Shown here: positions 25,841-31,249 of the stretch, in pieces
Layout of the letters: each line of letters begins with the position of its first letter
Position numbering within the stretch: position 1 is the first letter of the stretch
Origin: a virus
DNA length: 31,249 nt
IMG/VR virus record: IMGVR_UViG_3300020470_000126
Span: 1-31,249 of that record
Reading direction: 5' to 3' (one strand)
The notes under the pieces: generated by a model
Databases searched by the model: none
The model's input: only the letters and a program-made list of their open reading frames with translations
Told to the model about the DNA's origin: nothing
Position numbers and translations under genes: made by a program

Positions 25841-26398
25841 ATGGCAAGAAGTAAATATATCCAAAGTGTCTTAAAGGCAGCAGGTGGTAGACCTAAATCA
25901 ACACAATGGTTTCGTGATAAAATAAAAGAATTTGGAACACCAAAGTCTGCTGATTTGATTCGTGATGGTAAAAGAACCACAACACCCACTTTTGGTATAC
26001 TAAATATGTTTGTATATGACCCTAAACTAAAAGAGAAATTACCATATTATGATACATTTCCTTTAGTATTACCCATTGAAGAATATAAAAATGGATTTTT
26101 AGGAATCAATTTACACTATCTATCTATGCCTATGAGAATTAGATTATTAGATAGACTAATGGATTATAGTAATAATGATAAGTTTGATAAAACTACTGAA
26201 TTAAGAACTAATTATAGTAATCTAAAAAAAGTAGATTTAATTAAACCTTGTCTAAAAAGATACTTGGCAAGTAATGTGAAAACAAATTTTAGAAAAGTAG
26301 AAGCAGATGAATTTATTGTTGCAACACTATTACCTGTACAGAGATTTAAGAAACAATCTGACAGTCATGTGTTTGCTAAATCAAGAGGAATGATATAA
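25841..26398 (+). CDS. 2: gp2-like DNA end protector (probable)
   Basis: A 185-residue protein. FVYDPKLKEKLPYYDTFPLVLPIEEYKNGFLGINLHYLSMPMRIRLLDRLMDY resembles the conserved core of gp2-type head proteins in cyanophages, which protect DNA ends in the capsid. The late promoter gives a leaderless start. No ribosome site precedes the ATG. It opens the tail/structure block. The other candidate is a baseplate wedge protein (gp53), whose fold does not fit as well. Confidence 0.55.
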   Translation: MARSKYIQSVLKAAGGRPKSTQWFRDKIKEFGTPKSADLIRDGKRTTTPTFGILNMFVYDPKLKEKLPYYDTFPLVLPIEEYKNGFLGINLHYLSMPMRIRLLDRLMDYSNNDKFDKTTELRTNYSNLKKVDLIKPCLKRYLASNVKTNFRKVEADEFIVATLLPVQRFKKQSDSHVFAKSRGMI

Positions 26399-27120
26399 TG
26401 GCACTTAAACCACTAAAGGGTTTTGCACAAGGAGTATTAAATGAATTCTTGGGTCTTATTCATCAAGAAGATTCTTATGCTAGAGTATCTCGTTACGAAG
26501 TGGTAATACAACCACCAAGAAGTGTGACTAGACCTGAAGGTATGAATGCAGGGTCATCTCTAACTTTAGGTGAGTTGGCTAAAAATGGAACGAATAGAGA
26601 TGTATCTTTAAAGTGTACTAGTATTAATCTACCAGGCAGAACAATGACACAAGCAGAAGATAATACTTTACAAGGGCCGTCAAGAAATATCGTAAGTGGT
26701 GCTTCTACTTATGCTGACATTACTGCACAATTTAGTATGTTAAATATAAATGGTCAAGACAGAAGATTTTTTGAAGAATGGCAGAATCAAGCAATAAGCC
26801 CAGGTGATTTTAGTGCAAAATATTATGATGATTATGTGGGTGAAGTAAACATTTATTTACTCAATGAAAAAAATTTAAGAATGTATGGTATAAAACTTAT
26901 TGAAGCATTTCCTAAAGTGATAGGAGATTTTGCTTTAAATGGAGAAACTAAAAATCAATTGGCAACAATGGATGTTACTTTCTCTTATAGATATTGGGAT
27001 ATACTTGAAGGTCAAAGTGATTTACCTAAGAGAATAATACAAGGTGCATTTGATTTGTTGGCTAACTCTGTAGAAAACAAACTACTTAGAAAGTTACCAA
27101 AAGTTAAAACAAGACTATAG
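26398..27120 (+). CDS. Tail tube/baseplate tube-initiator-like protein (gp19/gp54 superfamily)
   Basis: A 240-residue structural protein in a TAATG overlap with the previous gene. Pattern: YARVSRYEVVIQPPRS, VSLKCTSINLPGRTM, GASTYADITAQFSMLNINGQDRRFFEEWQNQAISP, VGEVNIYLLNEKNLRMYGIKLIEAFPKVIGDFALNGETKNQLATMDVTFSYRYWDIL. That strand order fits the tail-tube fold of gp19, gp48 and gp54, which builds the tube or its cap on the hub. Which member it is cannot be decided by eye. Confidence 0.62.
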   Translation: MALKPLKGFAQGVLNEFLGLIHQEDSYARVSRYEVVIQPPRSVTRPEGMNAGSSLTLGELAKNGTNRDVSLKCTSINLPGRTMTQAEDNTLQGPSRNIVSGASTYADITAQFSMLNINGQDRRFFEEWQNQAISPGDFSAKYYDDYVGEVNIYLLNEKNLRMYGIKLIEAFPKVIGDFALNGETKNQLATMDVTFSYRYWDILEGQSDLPKRIIQGAFDLLANSVENKLLRKLPKVKTRL

Positions 27121-27145: not shown

Positions 27146-27847
27146 ATGGCATTACCAAAATTAGAAGCGCCTGTTCACAGTTTGACATTACCGTCATCAG
27201 GTGAACAGATAAAATTTAGACCGTTCTTAGTAAAAGAACAAAAATTATTGATTTTAGCTGAAGAAAGTAAAAATCAAGATGATTTATATAATGCATTAAA
27301 AGACATTATAGATGGTTGTACATTTAATAAATTATCAGTTAATGCATTACCAATGTTTGATGTTGAATATTTGTTTTTAAAGATAAGAGCAAAATCTGTT
27401 GGGTCAAAAATTAATGTAAATGTAGTTTGCCCAGATGATAAAAAAACACAAGTAATGACAGAAATAGATTTAGATGATATTGATGTACAGATAGATGAAG
27501 AACATACAAATGTTATACAAGTTAATGATGATATTAAGTTAGTTATGCAATATCCTATAATGGATGATGTTAAAACATTGAAAAATACATCTACTATGGA
27601 AATGTTTAAAATTATTAATAAATGTGTAAAAGAACTTCATCATGGAGAAAATATTTACAATGGGCCAGACATGCCTGAAAAAGAATTAGATGAATTTTTT
27701 GAAAGTATGAGCCCCGACCAATTTATGAAAGTTAATGATTTTTTTGACACAATGCCAAGATTAAGACATTATGTAAGTGTGACAAATCCTAATACTAAGG
27801 TAGAAAGTAAAGTTTTAATGGAGGGTCTAGAGCATTTTTTAGTGTAG
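27146..27847 (+). CDS. 26: gp26-like baseplate hub/tail assembly protein (0-frame product)
   Basis: A 233-residue protein beginning MALPKLEAPVHSLTLPSSGEQIKFRPFLVKEQKLLILAEE, the pattern of cyanophage-type gp26. The CxxD element (VVCPDDKK) and the DEFFESMSPDQFMKVNDFFDTMPRLRHYV segment are characteristic. In T4, gp26 acts in baseplate hub assembly near the tape measure. The last codons carry a slippery heptamer; a minority of ribosomes should shift into the -1 frame and read on for 67 codons (see the separate entry). Confidence 0.85.
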   Translation: MALPKLEAPVHSLTLPSSGEQIKFRPFLVKEQKLLILAEESKNQDDLYNALKDIIDGCTFNKLSVNALPMFDVEYLFLKIRAKSVGSKINVNVVCPDDKKTQVMTEIDLDDIDVQIDEEHTNVIQVNDDIKLVMQYPIMDDVKTLKNTSTMEMFKIINKCVKELHHGENIYNGPDMPEKELDEFFESMSPDQFMKVNDFFDTMPRLRHYVSVTNPNTKVESKVLMEGLEHFLV

Positions 27848-27865
27848 GGCTCTCTCATGAGAGCC
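27835..27865 (+). promoter_or_regulatory. Programmed -1 frameshift signal: slippery TTTTTTA plus hairpin
   Basis: In the 0 frame the codons are TTT TTA preceded by T: heptamer T TTT TTA at 27835-27841. A 6-base spacer (GTGTAG, with the 0-frame stop) leads to the stem GGCTCTC/GAGAGCC (27848-27854/27859-27865, loop TCAT). This is the textbook layout of a -1 ribosomal frameshift. Confidence 0.82.
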
Positions 27866-28044
27866 TAGAAAATTACTTCAAAACTAATTTTGCTCTCATG
27901 CAACATCATAAATACTCTTTAACTGAATTAGAAAATATGATACCATGGGAGAGAGAAATTTATATAGGTTTATTACAAAAATTTATAAAAGAGGAAAATG
28001 AAAAAACAGAGAAAGAAAATCAAAGGATGAAAAACAATGGCTGA
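27841..28044 (+). CDS. Frameshift-extension of gp26 (-1 frame)
   Basis: The -1 frame from 27841 runs 67 codons to TGA at 28042: SVGLSHESLENYFKTNF, then ALMQHHKYSLTELENMIPWEREIYIGLL and a charged Lys/Glu-rich tail. The NFALMQHHKYSLTELENMIPWERE phrase is the second-frame part of tail-assembly chaperone pairs in T4-like marine phages. An internal ATG (27898) could make a 48-residue form, but the frame without a start upstream of it favours the fusion (299 aa). It overlaps the next gene by 8 bases. Such extensions typically bind the tape measure, two genes on. Confidence 0.78.
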   Translation, partial: SVGLSHESLENYFKTNFALMQHHKYSLTELENMIPWEREIYIGLLQKFIKEENEKTEKENQRMKNNG

Positions 28045-28327
28045 AACAGAAACTAAAAAAGTAAATATAGAACTAGAAGTAGATACAAATGTTGTAGATT
28101 CTAGTAAAAATCAATATCAATCATGGATAGACATGGCAAGAGCTGTGGATGCATGGAGAATATTTCCTAGAGTATTCATTACAACATACATCTATCTATT
28201 ATACAAAGTAGTCATATGGTACATGGAACTACCTAATCCAACAATGGAACAATCTGGTTTAGTCAGTATTGTAGTTGGTGCAGGTGCAGCATGGTTTGGA
28301 CTATACGCAGGAACGAGTAAAAAATAA
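28037..28327 (+). CDS. Conserved membrane protein beside the tape measure (holin candidate)
   Basis: A 96-residue protein with the pattern ARAVDAWRIFPRVFITTYIYLLYKVVIWYMELPNPTMEQSGLVSIVVGAGAAWFGLYAGTSKK: two membrane segments (about 44-64 and 73-90) with a polar hinge. The WRIFPRxFIT and EQSGLVSxVxGAGAAWFGLY phrases recur in marine T4-like phages at this place. A holin or tail-tip membrane function is plausible, not shown. Confidence 0.68.
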   Translation: MAETETKKVNIELEVDTNVVDSSKNQYQSWIDMARAVDAWRIFPRVFITTYIYLLYKVVIWYMELPNPTMEQSGLVSIVVGAGAAWFGLYAGTSKK

Positions 28328-29799
28328 TGGACCCAAAACAAATAGCTATAACCGAACAAAAAAATAGGAATAAGACCTTTCAGGCCGGCCTAGATAGAAT
28401 GAAAAAAGAACGAGATAAGGAGGCAAAAGCTAAAAAGAAAGAAGAAGATGAAAGAGAAGCAAAATCAGTGCATGAGCAGAAAAAAATAGCATTGATGCAA
28501 ATGAATAACATAGATGAGAAAGAAGCACAAACAAGACTTGAATTTCAACAAAGAGTTGAATCCCAAGAAGCACTTCTTAAACAAATGGCTGATGAAATAG
28601 GAGAGGGATATCAAGATGATGCAAGATATCAACTAAGGGCAAAATCTTTAGAGGAAGAAAAAGAGATAGAAAAAAAGAGAGTAGATGACCAACAAAAAGA
28701 CGCACTAGAATTAATAGCTGATAAACTAACTGGTTTAAAAGAATCTTTTAATAATTATGTGGGGGAGACACCAGTTTTTATGCAAGGGGTTGGTATAGCA
28801 TTAGGACTATTTTTATTAGGACAGTTTTTAACAAGTGATGTGTTTAAGGGTATATTAGATTATCTAATAAATGAAATAGTTCCAGCGTTTACAGCCTTTT
28901 ATAGAGATATCCAAAATTTTGAAATGTCTTGGACAGGTATCTTTTCTCTACTTTATAATAACTTTGCTGTAATTCTCGGCATCCTTTTTGCATTTAAACC
29001 TAGGTTATTATACAGAGCAGTGGCAGGAATAATTAGTGGAATAAAATTCATATACACGGATTTAAATAAAACTGCTGTGTTTGCCGGCGGTAGTAAAATT
29101 AAGAAGGCATTGTCATTACTAAGACTTGGGTTTGTTAATGTAGGCAAAGGGATTAGTAGAGCCGCAATTACCATGTTAGGATATGTGAAAAAGTTTATGA
29201 TAATGTTACTAGCAAATCCTATAGGATTAATAATAGCAGCAATAGCAGCAGCAATTGGAGCAGTAGTTTATTACTTTGATGATATTAAAAATTATGTTAA
29301 TGAATTGGGTGGAATCGGTAATTTGTTTGCAGTTGCAGTAGGTGCTATAAAAGATGGTTTTGCAAGGGTAGGTAATTTTTTCATTAAATTATCAAACAAA
29401 TTATTTGGCACTGAATTTGAAGAATTTGAAACAGATAACTTTAAAAAGGCAAATGAAAAAAGAAAACTTGATGCTGCGAGATACAGAATTGAAAAACAGG
29501 CTGCAGAAAAAGAAAAAGAAGAGGCAGATAAAAAGAAAAAACATGCAGATGAACAAATGGCGGCAGGAAATCAAGTAAGAGATATAGAAAATGAGGCTAT
29601 GGGTAAAAATGAACAATCTGCAGAAGATATGTTGGCGGGTGCGTTAGATAAACTAGGTGCGTTGTCTGGTGCACAACAACCTTCAGTCATAAATGTTGAT
29701 AATTCAGTACGAGATAATTCTTCATCATCTAACACGTCAGTTAGTAATGAAAATATAGAGGATAGTGATTTTGCAAAAGCTTTAGGATATATGGCCTAA
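28327..29799 (+). CDS. 29: Tail tape measure protein (gp29-like)
   Basis: A 490-residue protein (T4 gp29 is 590). Long charged N-terminal helix (KKERDKEAKAKKKEEDEREAK..., residues 25-130), a hydrophobic central region (about 150-340, with three or so membrane-like segments, such as LANPIGLIIAAIAAAIGAVVYYF), and an Ala/Lys/Glu-rich C-terminal coiled coil ending in a Ser/Asn-rich region. This layout is typical of tape measures, which set tail length and may help DNA entry. Position after gp26 and the membrane protein supports it. Confidence 0.82.
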   Translation: MDPKQIAITEQKNRNKTFQAGLDRMKKERDKEAKAKKKEEDEREAKSVHEQKKIALMQMNNIDEKEAQTRLEFQQRVESQEALLKQMADEIGEGYQDDARYQLRAKSLEEEKEIEKKRVDDQQKDALELIADKLTGLKESFNNYVGETPVFMQGVGIALGLFLLGQFLTSDVFKGILDYLINEIVPAFTAFYRDIQNFEMSWTGIFSLLYNNFAVILGILFAFKPRLLYRAVAGIISGIKFIYTDLNKTAVFAGGSKIKKALSLLRLGFVNVGKGISRAAITMLGYVKKFMIMLLANPIGLIIAAIAAAIGAVVYYFDDIKNYVNELGGIGNLFAVAVGAIKDGFARVGNFFIKLSNKLFGTEFEEFETDNFKKANEKRKLDAARYRIEKQAAEKEKEEADKKKKHADEQMAAGNQVRDIENEAMGKNEQSAEDMLAGALDKLGALSGAQQPSVINVDNSVRDNSSSSNTSVSNENIEDSDFAKALGYMA

Positions 29800-30236
29800 C
29801 GAGGATTTAAATGGTCTTCGGTTAATATTTTAAACTGCATACCATGAGACTTACAAAATTCTTCTGCTGATTTCCATTTTGCTTTGTTGATACCCCATGT
29901 TCTTACTCTACTAAACCATTTACCTGTTCTTCTTTTAGGAGTTTTTTCTGGTGGTGTACATTGATTCTTAGGTTTAACTTCTATGATATACTTTTGTAGT
30001 TTACCACTTCTATCTTTAACTTTAACATAAAAATCAGGGAAATATCTATGATAACGACCATCCCATGGCGAAAGATATGGAATAACCAATTCTTCACTAC
30101 CCCATTCTACCACAGATGCAGTAGTGTCACAGTATATCATCATCTTCTTTTCCCAAGAAGAACGATACACTATTTCATTAACATTCCCTTTATACTTAGA
30201 GGGATTTTTGGGTTTAAACAGTCCTTTATATGTCAT
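29796..30236 (-). CDS. 4: gp4-like head completion nuclease, minus strand
   Basis: A 146-residue protein, the only minus-strand gene. MTYKGLFKPKNPSKYKGNVNEIVYRSSWEKKMMIYCDTTASVVEWGSEELVIPYLSPWDGRYHRYFPDFYVKVKDRSGKLQKYIIEVKPKNQ matches T4 gp4 (gp50/65) homologues, with the nuclease-like strands WGSEE, FPDFYVK and EVKPK (PD-ExK type). gp4 finishes heads before tail joining. The start at 30236 was chosen because it begins the family's MTYKG motif; longer openings run into the promoter region. It converges with gp29 and overlaps its end by four bases. Confidence 0.88.
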   Translation of the reverse strand: MTYKGLFKPKNPSKYKGNVNEIVYRSSWEKKMMIYCDTTASVVEWGSEELVIPYLSPWDGRYHRYFPDFYVKVKDRSGKLQKYIIEVKPKNQCTPPEKTPKRRTGKWFSRVRTWGINKAKWKSAEEFCKSHGMQFKILTEDHLNPR

Positions 30237-30242
30237 AATCGT

Positions 30243-30250
30243 TATAAATA
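30243..30250 (+). promoter_or_regulatory. T4-type late promoter for the + strand (gene 48)
   Basis: Exact TATAAATA; predicted start near 30256, leader about 22 bases. It lies within 20 bp of an opposite-strand box, so the two late start sites overlap. Confidence 0.68.
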
Positions 30251-30268
30251 CTTTAAATCTTATAGGAC

Positions 30269-30276
30269 TATTTATA
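30269..30276 (-). promoter_or_regulatory. T4-type late promoter for the minus-strand gene 4
   Basis: TATTTATA on + is TATAAATA on -. Predicted start near 30263, leader about 27 bases to the ATG at 30236. The two divergent transcripts would share about 8 bp at their 5' ends. Confidence 0.68.
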
Positions 30277-30277
30277 C

Positions 30278-31249
30278 ATGGCATTAGATAACTTAAAGAG
30301 ACAAGGCAAGTCTGCTGCAGTCGGATTATTAGGAAAAAACTTACGAAGGGTTGCTGGAAACATAGGTAATCTTGTTCGTGGTGATATCACAGGGCCTGAT
30401 TCATCTGAATCAGCACCAATTAATCGTAGTAGACAAGGAACAAACATGTTATCTTTTCCTATTGATGTAGGTGCAGACCCTGGTATAGGTAATCATGGAC
30501 ACTATGTTATGTTTATGATTAATGAACAAGCAAATACTAAATTAAAATTTGGTGATGAAACAGAGAAACCTGCAGCAGGAACAGAGAACTTAGTTAAGGC
30601 TGCACAACAAAAAGGAATATCATCCATACAAAAAAAGTTTGATAGTAAACTAGGTGGATTCATACAATCAATCGTACCAGATTCCATATCTAAAAATTTA
30701 ATATCTGGTTTTACAGACACGATTGGTGGATTAAAATTAGACACCACAGGTAGAGTAAAACATAATCCCACAGTACAAACAACAAGAGTTGAAGATAAAG
30801 AATCAACCATACTGATTGATAAATTACCAACTAAAAGATTAGATACTGTTATAAACATGTATATGCCAACTAATGCAAAAGTTTCTTATGGTGCTGAATA
30901 CACAGATACAACAATGGGGGCTGCAGTACCAGGTATCATAGAGGCACTCATGGGTAATGTTGGAATAGAAACGGCAGTAGATAATGCCATGAGTGATGTT
31001 GGTGCTGCCGCAGAAAGAGCAGGATTAAAAGCATTAACAGAGATACCTGGTCTTGCTGGTGCAGTTGAGGCAGCAGAGATGGCCAAAGGTGTAGTGATGG
31101 CCGATAGAATGGAGTTAGTATTTAAAGGTATAGGAAAAAGAAAGTTTACTTTTGAATTTAAAATGATGCCAAGAAGTCAAGATGAGGCCGATGAAATACA
31201 AAGAATCATATATGCATTTAAATTTAATATGTTACCAGAGTTTGTAGGT
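30278..31249 (+). CDS. 48: gp48-like baseplate tail-tube cap, 3' end outside window
   Basis: The first 324 residues of a protein that runs off the window (T4 gp48 is 364). The N-terminal KRQGKSAAVGLLGKNLRR is basic; SFPIDVGADPGIGNHGHYVMFMINEQANTK is characteristic of gp48 in T4-like phages; DKLPTKRLDTVINMYMPTNAKVSYGAEYTDT and FEFKMMPRSQDEADEIQRIIYAFKFNMLPEF are tube-type strands and closing helix. gp48 caps the hub and starts tube growth. It follows the gp29 gene (with gp4 between), as in T4. Confidence 0.83.
   Translation, partial: MALDNLKRQGKSAAVGLLGKNLRRVAGNIGNLVRGDITGPDSSESAPINRSRQGTNMLSFPIDVGADPGIGNHGHYVMFMINEQANTKLKFGDETEKPAAGTENLVKAAQQKGISSIQKKFDSKLGGFIQSIVPDSISKNLISGFTDTIGGLKLDTTGRVKHNPTVQTTRVEDKESTILIDKLPTKRLDTVINMYMPTNAKVSYGAEYTDTTMGAAVPGIIEALMGNVGIETAVDNAMSDVGAAAERAGLKALTEIPGLAGAVEAAEMAKGVVMADRMELVFKGIGKRKFTFEFKMMPRSQDEADEIQRIIYAFKFNMLPEFVG

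Follow-up and report, generated by a model that had tools for sequence, protein, structure and literature searches.

A probable programmed −1 frameshift joining the gp26 and gp51 reading frames into two forms of a tail assembly chaperone in T4-related phages

The viral record IMGVR_UViG_3300020470_000126, from a marine T4-like phage, contains a homolog of T4-type gene 26 whose reading frame closes at a TAG stop just past the heptamer T TTT TTA, and the overlapping −1 frame remains open beyond this stop. Does this gene encode a single protein, or could it yield two, and what is the −1 frame? We analyzed a window of 31,249 nt of this record, which is a fragment and not a whole genome. A first-pass annotation had proposed a programmed −1 frameshift on the basis of a slippery T TTT TTA, a 6-base spacer and a 7-bp stem-loop, and had likened the resulting fusion to the gpG-gpGT tail assembly chaperones of siphophages. 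Our data favor this reading. We estimate at roughly 0.9 the probability that one gene gives rise to two tail assembly chaperones of the G/GT type (233 and 299 aa) by −1 frameshifting.

The −1 frame and its relation to gp51

The predicted short form (27146..27847; features are on the plus strand unless indicated otherwise) is a gp26 homolog of 233 aa. It matched PF12322 (T4_baseplate) with an E value of 1.2e-64 and a score of 218.4 bits vs a curated cut-off of 24.5, and phrog_150 ('baseplate hub') at 3.5e-68. From 27841, the −1 frame stays open up to a TGA at 28042-28044 (67 codons and the stop, 27841..28044); it matched phrog_634, 'baseplate hub assembly catalyst' (gp51), at 5.8e-28. In tblastn searches, this tail had matches in 564 phage records. 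The frame had been described as open and conserved-looking, and it proved to be so: pairwise pN/pS was 0.09 in the tail frame vs 1.4 and 2.6 in the other two frames, the tail frame alone among the three was stop-free in every locus, and the tail core kept a constant register with no gaps past the heptamer. These values indicate strong purifying selection on the −1 frame. The computed length of the fusion, 299 aa, agreed with the earlier figure of about 299 aa, and its predicted junction peptide in the window form reads ...EHFLSVGLSHESLENYFK. Judged by homology, the tail is no new extension: hundreds of phage records already list it as a gene, 'gp51, baseplate hub assembly catalyst'.

It is conceivable that gp51 is instead a separate gene with its own start, at which ribosomes would initiate independently or re-initiate after terminating on gp26. 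Most GenBank entries annotate gp51 in this way, among them those of P-SSM2, Mosig, syn9, Syn33, ValKK3 and phiM12, and an ATG, GTG or TTG occurs soon past the stop in 46/165 loci. However, the starts chosen by annotators vary and are inconsistent with one another, and gp51 is left unannotated in the records of S-WAM1, S-MbCM7 and S-H9-1. More directly, the earliest tail-frame ATG, GTG or TTG lies at least 30 nt past the slip in 116 of the 165 distinct loci, and residues L5, H7, L10, N17 and F18, which precede the first start codon, are highly conserved. Because these 116 loci lack a start codon within 30 nt of the slip, the conserved N-terminal part of gp51 (LSHESLEN) could not arise by independent initiation and would need frameshifting. 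The first tail-frame start in the window (27898) is inside the conserved core, has no Shine-Dalgarno (SD) sequence of its own and is located ~72 nt past the GGAGGG motif described below. A free-standing gp51 would also leave the near-universal conservation of the heptamer unexplained. We rejected independent initiation on the basis of start-codon positions in the 165 distinct loci, and regard a separate gp51 gene as improbable.

Conservation of the slippery site and its flanking signals

The heptamer T TTT TTA (27835..27841) is positioned in the gp26 frame in the register X XXY YYZ, and the TAG stop of the short form (27845..27847) follows 3 nt past it, a distance that was also found in 144 of the 165 distinct loci. 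To follow the site in relatives, we gathered sequences with several protein queries and counted loci only if both gp26 and the tail were found. The tail was in relative frame −1 to gp26 in 268 of 269 such loci, the exception being phiTY18, where it is in frame. An in-frame T TTT TTN was present in 267 of the 268 loci with the −1 layout (165/166 after removal of near-duplicates); its last base was C in 164, T in 63, A in 39 and G in one. At other Phe-Phe or Phe-Leu pairs of the same genes, this spelling occurred in 42 of 546 cases. We give proportions and not a probability, because the loci share ancestry. Conservation of the heptamer is far beyond chance.

The sole locus without the heptamer, L088, has a gp26 that ends early (ELDEFIEQLNTKQFIS), so that both the slippery site and the final ~35 residues of the protein are missing. 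Around its gp26 stop (1897), the tail and an 11-bp hairpin downstream are still there. The locus looks like a deletion or a chimeric contig, and it is not a counter-example, since the gp26 3' end that would carry the site is absent.

Homopolymers are prone to error, and the same tail is in frame in T4, so that a sequencing or assembly error might have split a single in-frame gene. However, hundreds of marine contigs show the same split, as do isolate genomes that come from several laboratories; this conservation refutes the error and makes it hardly conceivable. The slippery heptamer, the 6-base spacer and the 7-bp stem-loop of the first-pass annotation were all present in the window, and the conserved heptamer, the conserved −1 frame and the constant tail register together support its reading of a programmed −1 frameshift.

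Upstream of the slippery site, we detected an internal SD-like sequence, GGAGGG (27820..27825), 9 nt before the heptamer, which is a candidate stimulator. Across 164 loci, predicted pairing with the anti-SD showed a sharp peak at this offset (mean −7.1 vs 0.0 kcal/mol background) and was below −5 kcal/mol in 88% of the loci. The pairing was also stronger than in synonymous resamples (−7.3 vs −5.5). The Glu codon within the motif was GAG in 114 cases and GAA in 24, opposite to the bias elsewhere in the gene (869:2701). This codon bias implies that the SD-like signal is owed partly, but not wholly, to the conserved Glu-Gly-Leu.

A hairpin, GGGCTCTC-TCAT-GAGAGCCT (27847..27866), was considered as the downstream stimulator and was assessed by resampling and by compensatory changes. 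Its core, GGCTCTC-TCAT-GAGAGCC (27848-27865), has 7 bp and a 6-nt spacer; with the extra terminal G.U pair 27847/27866, it has 8 bp and a 5-nt spacer. This hairpin was ~5 SD (standard deviations) more stable than synonymous resamples. Seven or eight of its 8 pairs were kept in 16/29 relatives with T TTT TTA, and compensatory changes were seen in pair 3 (GC to AU) and pair 6 (CG to AU or UA), at wobble positions of the tail frame. In an alignment of 27 sequences with T TTT TTA, cells with both sides changed numbered 12 (mean in shuffles, 4.0), and pairing was better in the true register than in any slid one; two of five covariation measures, however, were not above column shuffles of this alignment.

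We expected a universal hairpin but did not find one among the 164 loci, and many carry the heptamer without an obvious hairpin. P-SSM2 has an unrelated hairpin of 11 bp at the same place, and other lineages likewise have unrelated hairpins. A strong hairpin at +10..+17 occurred in 35/164 loci, compared with 5.5 expected and a maximum of 10 in 20 resamples. Because strong hairpins are confined to these 35 loci, the hairpin appears to be a lineage-specific candidate stimulator and not a defining part of the signal. The stem of the first-pass annotation is therefore conserved, with compensatory changes, in part of the window's lineage, but not as a universal feature. Two elements go beyond that annotation: the upstream SD-like GGAGGG, and the turnover of lineage-specific hairpins with compensatory changes at wobble positions.

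These flanking signals also bear on a different mechanism, in which RNA polymerase would slip on the T run and produce some mRNAs with a frame-joining indel. The site is always a T run, and 37 of the 165 distinct loci have 7-9 T. In the remaining 128/165, however, the run has just six T, and bacterial transcriptional slippage usually needs runs longer than six T. In addition, the codon register, the SD-like motif and the position of the hairpin all fit ribosomal slippage. Since most of the runs are only six long, we consider transcriptional slippage very unlikely.

Gene neighborhood, fold of the short form and predicted roles

The gp26/gp51 locus is located between a tail-tube-like gene (26398..27120; phrog_45, 1.2e-31) and a gene for a 490-aa protein (28327..29799) that we tentatively designate tape-measure-like, because it weakly matched several PHROGs of tape-measure proteins (1e-6 to 1e-5) and is positioned as in lambda and P2. 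The corresponding neighbor in phiM12 is annotated as tape-measure-like. Tail assembly chaperones are usually encoded at this place. One small conserved ORF intervenes on the tape-measure side (28037..28327, 96 aa; phrog_10198, 1.6e-23). It has a hydrophobic C-terminal half and overlaps the end of the frameshift tail; in relatives, its place is taken by ORFs of varying size in Mosig, phiM12 and P10VF and by none in others. On the minus strand, a head-closure (gp4-like) gene (29796-30284) is found between the tape-measure-like gene and a gp48-like tube-cap gene.

We also examined an AlphaFold model of the gp26 homolog (pLDDT 90.5). With VIA-align, model residues 1-95 matched three solved structures of the tail-chaperone type, 3fgx (Z 8.0), 2ob9 (the HK97 tail assembly chaperone, 7.7) and 3klu (YqbN, 7.3), and the next row scored 2.7. 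The match was confined to the N-domain (~90 first residues). Neither this model nor a T4-type long form had a significant Foldseek match in the PDB, and a sequence search among solved structures gave no match. The model suggests a tail-assembly-chaperone-like fold for the N-domain. We view this as supportive rather than decisive, because Z values near 8 are middling, the resemblance to chaperones came only through VIA-align and the Foldseek result was not significant.

The T4 proteins gp26 and gp51 are both described as chaperones of hub assembly, and the particle does not contain gp51 (PMC3004832). This description, the gene position and the fold of the gp26 model lead us to regard the short form as gpG-like and the long form as gpGT-like. 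The parallel with gpG-gpGT drawn in the first-pass annotation gains support from the gene position and the chaperone-like N-domain.

The computational support for a frameshifted chaperone gene comprises homology, the frame relation of the two parts, conservation of the heptamer, selection on the −1 frame, the lack of a usable start, the SD-like and hairpin signals and a chaperone-type fold. From the sequence, we infer the frameshifting event, its rate and the roles of both stimulators as follows. Most ribosomes would terminate at the gp26-frame TAG (27845) and so yield the 233-aa short form. A minority would pause at T TTT TTA, where GGAGGG may pair with the 3' end of 16S rRNA and pull back from upstream, and the hairpin may block the ribosome from downstream; both tRNAs would then slip by one base, and reading of the gp51 frame would produce the 299-aa long form. 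By analogy with lambda gpG/gpGT, which also suggests the binding partners of both forms, the short domain might coat the tape-measure protein, the tail added by frameshifting might recruit tail-tube subunits, and both forms would be gone before the virion is completed.

Two-gene phages and known frameshifting systems

T4 has two genes for these forms. Gene 26 (208 aa) consists of PF12322 alone, and gene 51 (249 aa) contains PF12322 and the tail in one frame; Acj9 and phiAS4 have the same arrangement. All 12 frameshift-layout genomes examined had one PF12322 gene, compared with two in T4, Acj9, phiAS4 and phiTY18. The window, a 31-kb fragment, contains one, and in complete records of relatives that share its layout the number is exactly one. 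The frameshift layout is also found in KVP40-like Vibrio phages, which belong to T4's own family. We looked for a relic heptamer in T4 gene 26 and rejected it: the Phe-Phe pair is spelled TTC TTT, and a stop closes the −1 frame immediately.

In the phylogenetic tree, a branch with SH-aLRT 91 separated the frameshift group from the rest, and T4-type short forms clustered together, as did the long forms, with the long-branched phiTY18 pair apart. The T4 lineage may have replaced frameshifting by duplication, on a tree that does not root the order of events. In the Vibrio phage phiTY18, a divergent short copy and an in-frame long copy of PF12322 are adjacent and share a strand, whereas the short gene of T4 is on the opposite strand; the two-gene state may have originated separately in this phage. 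In another locus (L281:2501-3246), the ORF of a T4-type gp51 homolog breaks after ~120 aa and the match extends to residue 247; the break may stem from a faulty sequence or from another type of recoding.

A 2016 paper described G-T frameshifting as a conserved property of long-tailed phages 'except T4' (PMC5009743). The first-pass annotation was aware of no description of a frameshift for T4-type gene 26, but this does not hold according to later papers: tail assembly chaperones of T4-like phages are credited to Vladimirov, Gautam and Davidson, Virology 2022 (as cited in PMC10885494 and PMC12846349), including, in the words of the citing papers, a short gene plus a longer fused gene in place of frameshifting in some T4-like phages (PMC10885494) and poly-T slippery sequences in the chaperone genes (PMC12846349). 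Because of these attributions, the locus is a further case of what appears, from the citing papers, to be a known kind, and what we add is the anatomy of the signal and a wide test of its conservation. The locus adds to the existing view that the G/GT rule extends to the relatives of T4, with T4 itself having two genes for the same two forms.

In the hundreds of marine phage genomes with this layout, a separately annotated gp51 is very probably the end of a frameshift product and not a free-standing protein. Therefore, separate annotations and experiments that express gp51 alone would start from the wrong protein. More tentatively, and with some doubt, we suggest that a three-part signal (SD-like motif, U6 heptamer and fast-changing lineage-specific hairpin) might set the chaperone ratio in most of the T4 superfamily outside the two-gene group, and that the T4 lineage swapped it for duplication. 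If this is true, recoding and duplication stand in for one another along a natural series of phages. Even with the chaperones and the poly-T site already known, the anatomy of the signal and the turnover of its hairpins would then be new.

Several known systems resemble parts of this arrangement. The E. coli dnaX signal consists of an internal SD ~10 nt upstream, the heptamer A AAA AAG and a hairpin a few nt downstream. The window shares this three-part composition, but dnaX is a cellular gene and differs in its heptamer. In the contractile-tail phage P2, the E/E+E' chaperone is made by −1 frameshifting on T TTT TTG, a T-rich heptamer like that of the window. The lambda heptamer is G GGA AAG, and that of the window is U UUU UUA. 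The lambda G-T gene is located between the tail-tube and tape-measure genes and encodes a short product and a longer −1 product, which are needed for tails and absent from the virion (PMC5009743). The window likewise has one gene with predicted short and longer −1 products in the same neighborhood; however, we found no sequence relation to gpG/gpGT, and the window adds the SD-like motif and the hairpin. The tail chaperone of the Vandenendeviridae phage Adele has a poly-T −1 site at the end of its short form (PMC12846349), and there too the downstream ORF is usually annotated as a separate gene, but Adele belongs to another phage family and its motif is given as GTTTTT. T4 gp26 and gp51 belong to the same protein family, with PF12322 in the short form and PF12322 plus the gp51 tail in the long form. 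They differ in that T4 and its close kin have two paralogous genes, the long one in frame, whereas the window and its group have one gene with a −1 heptamer.
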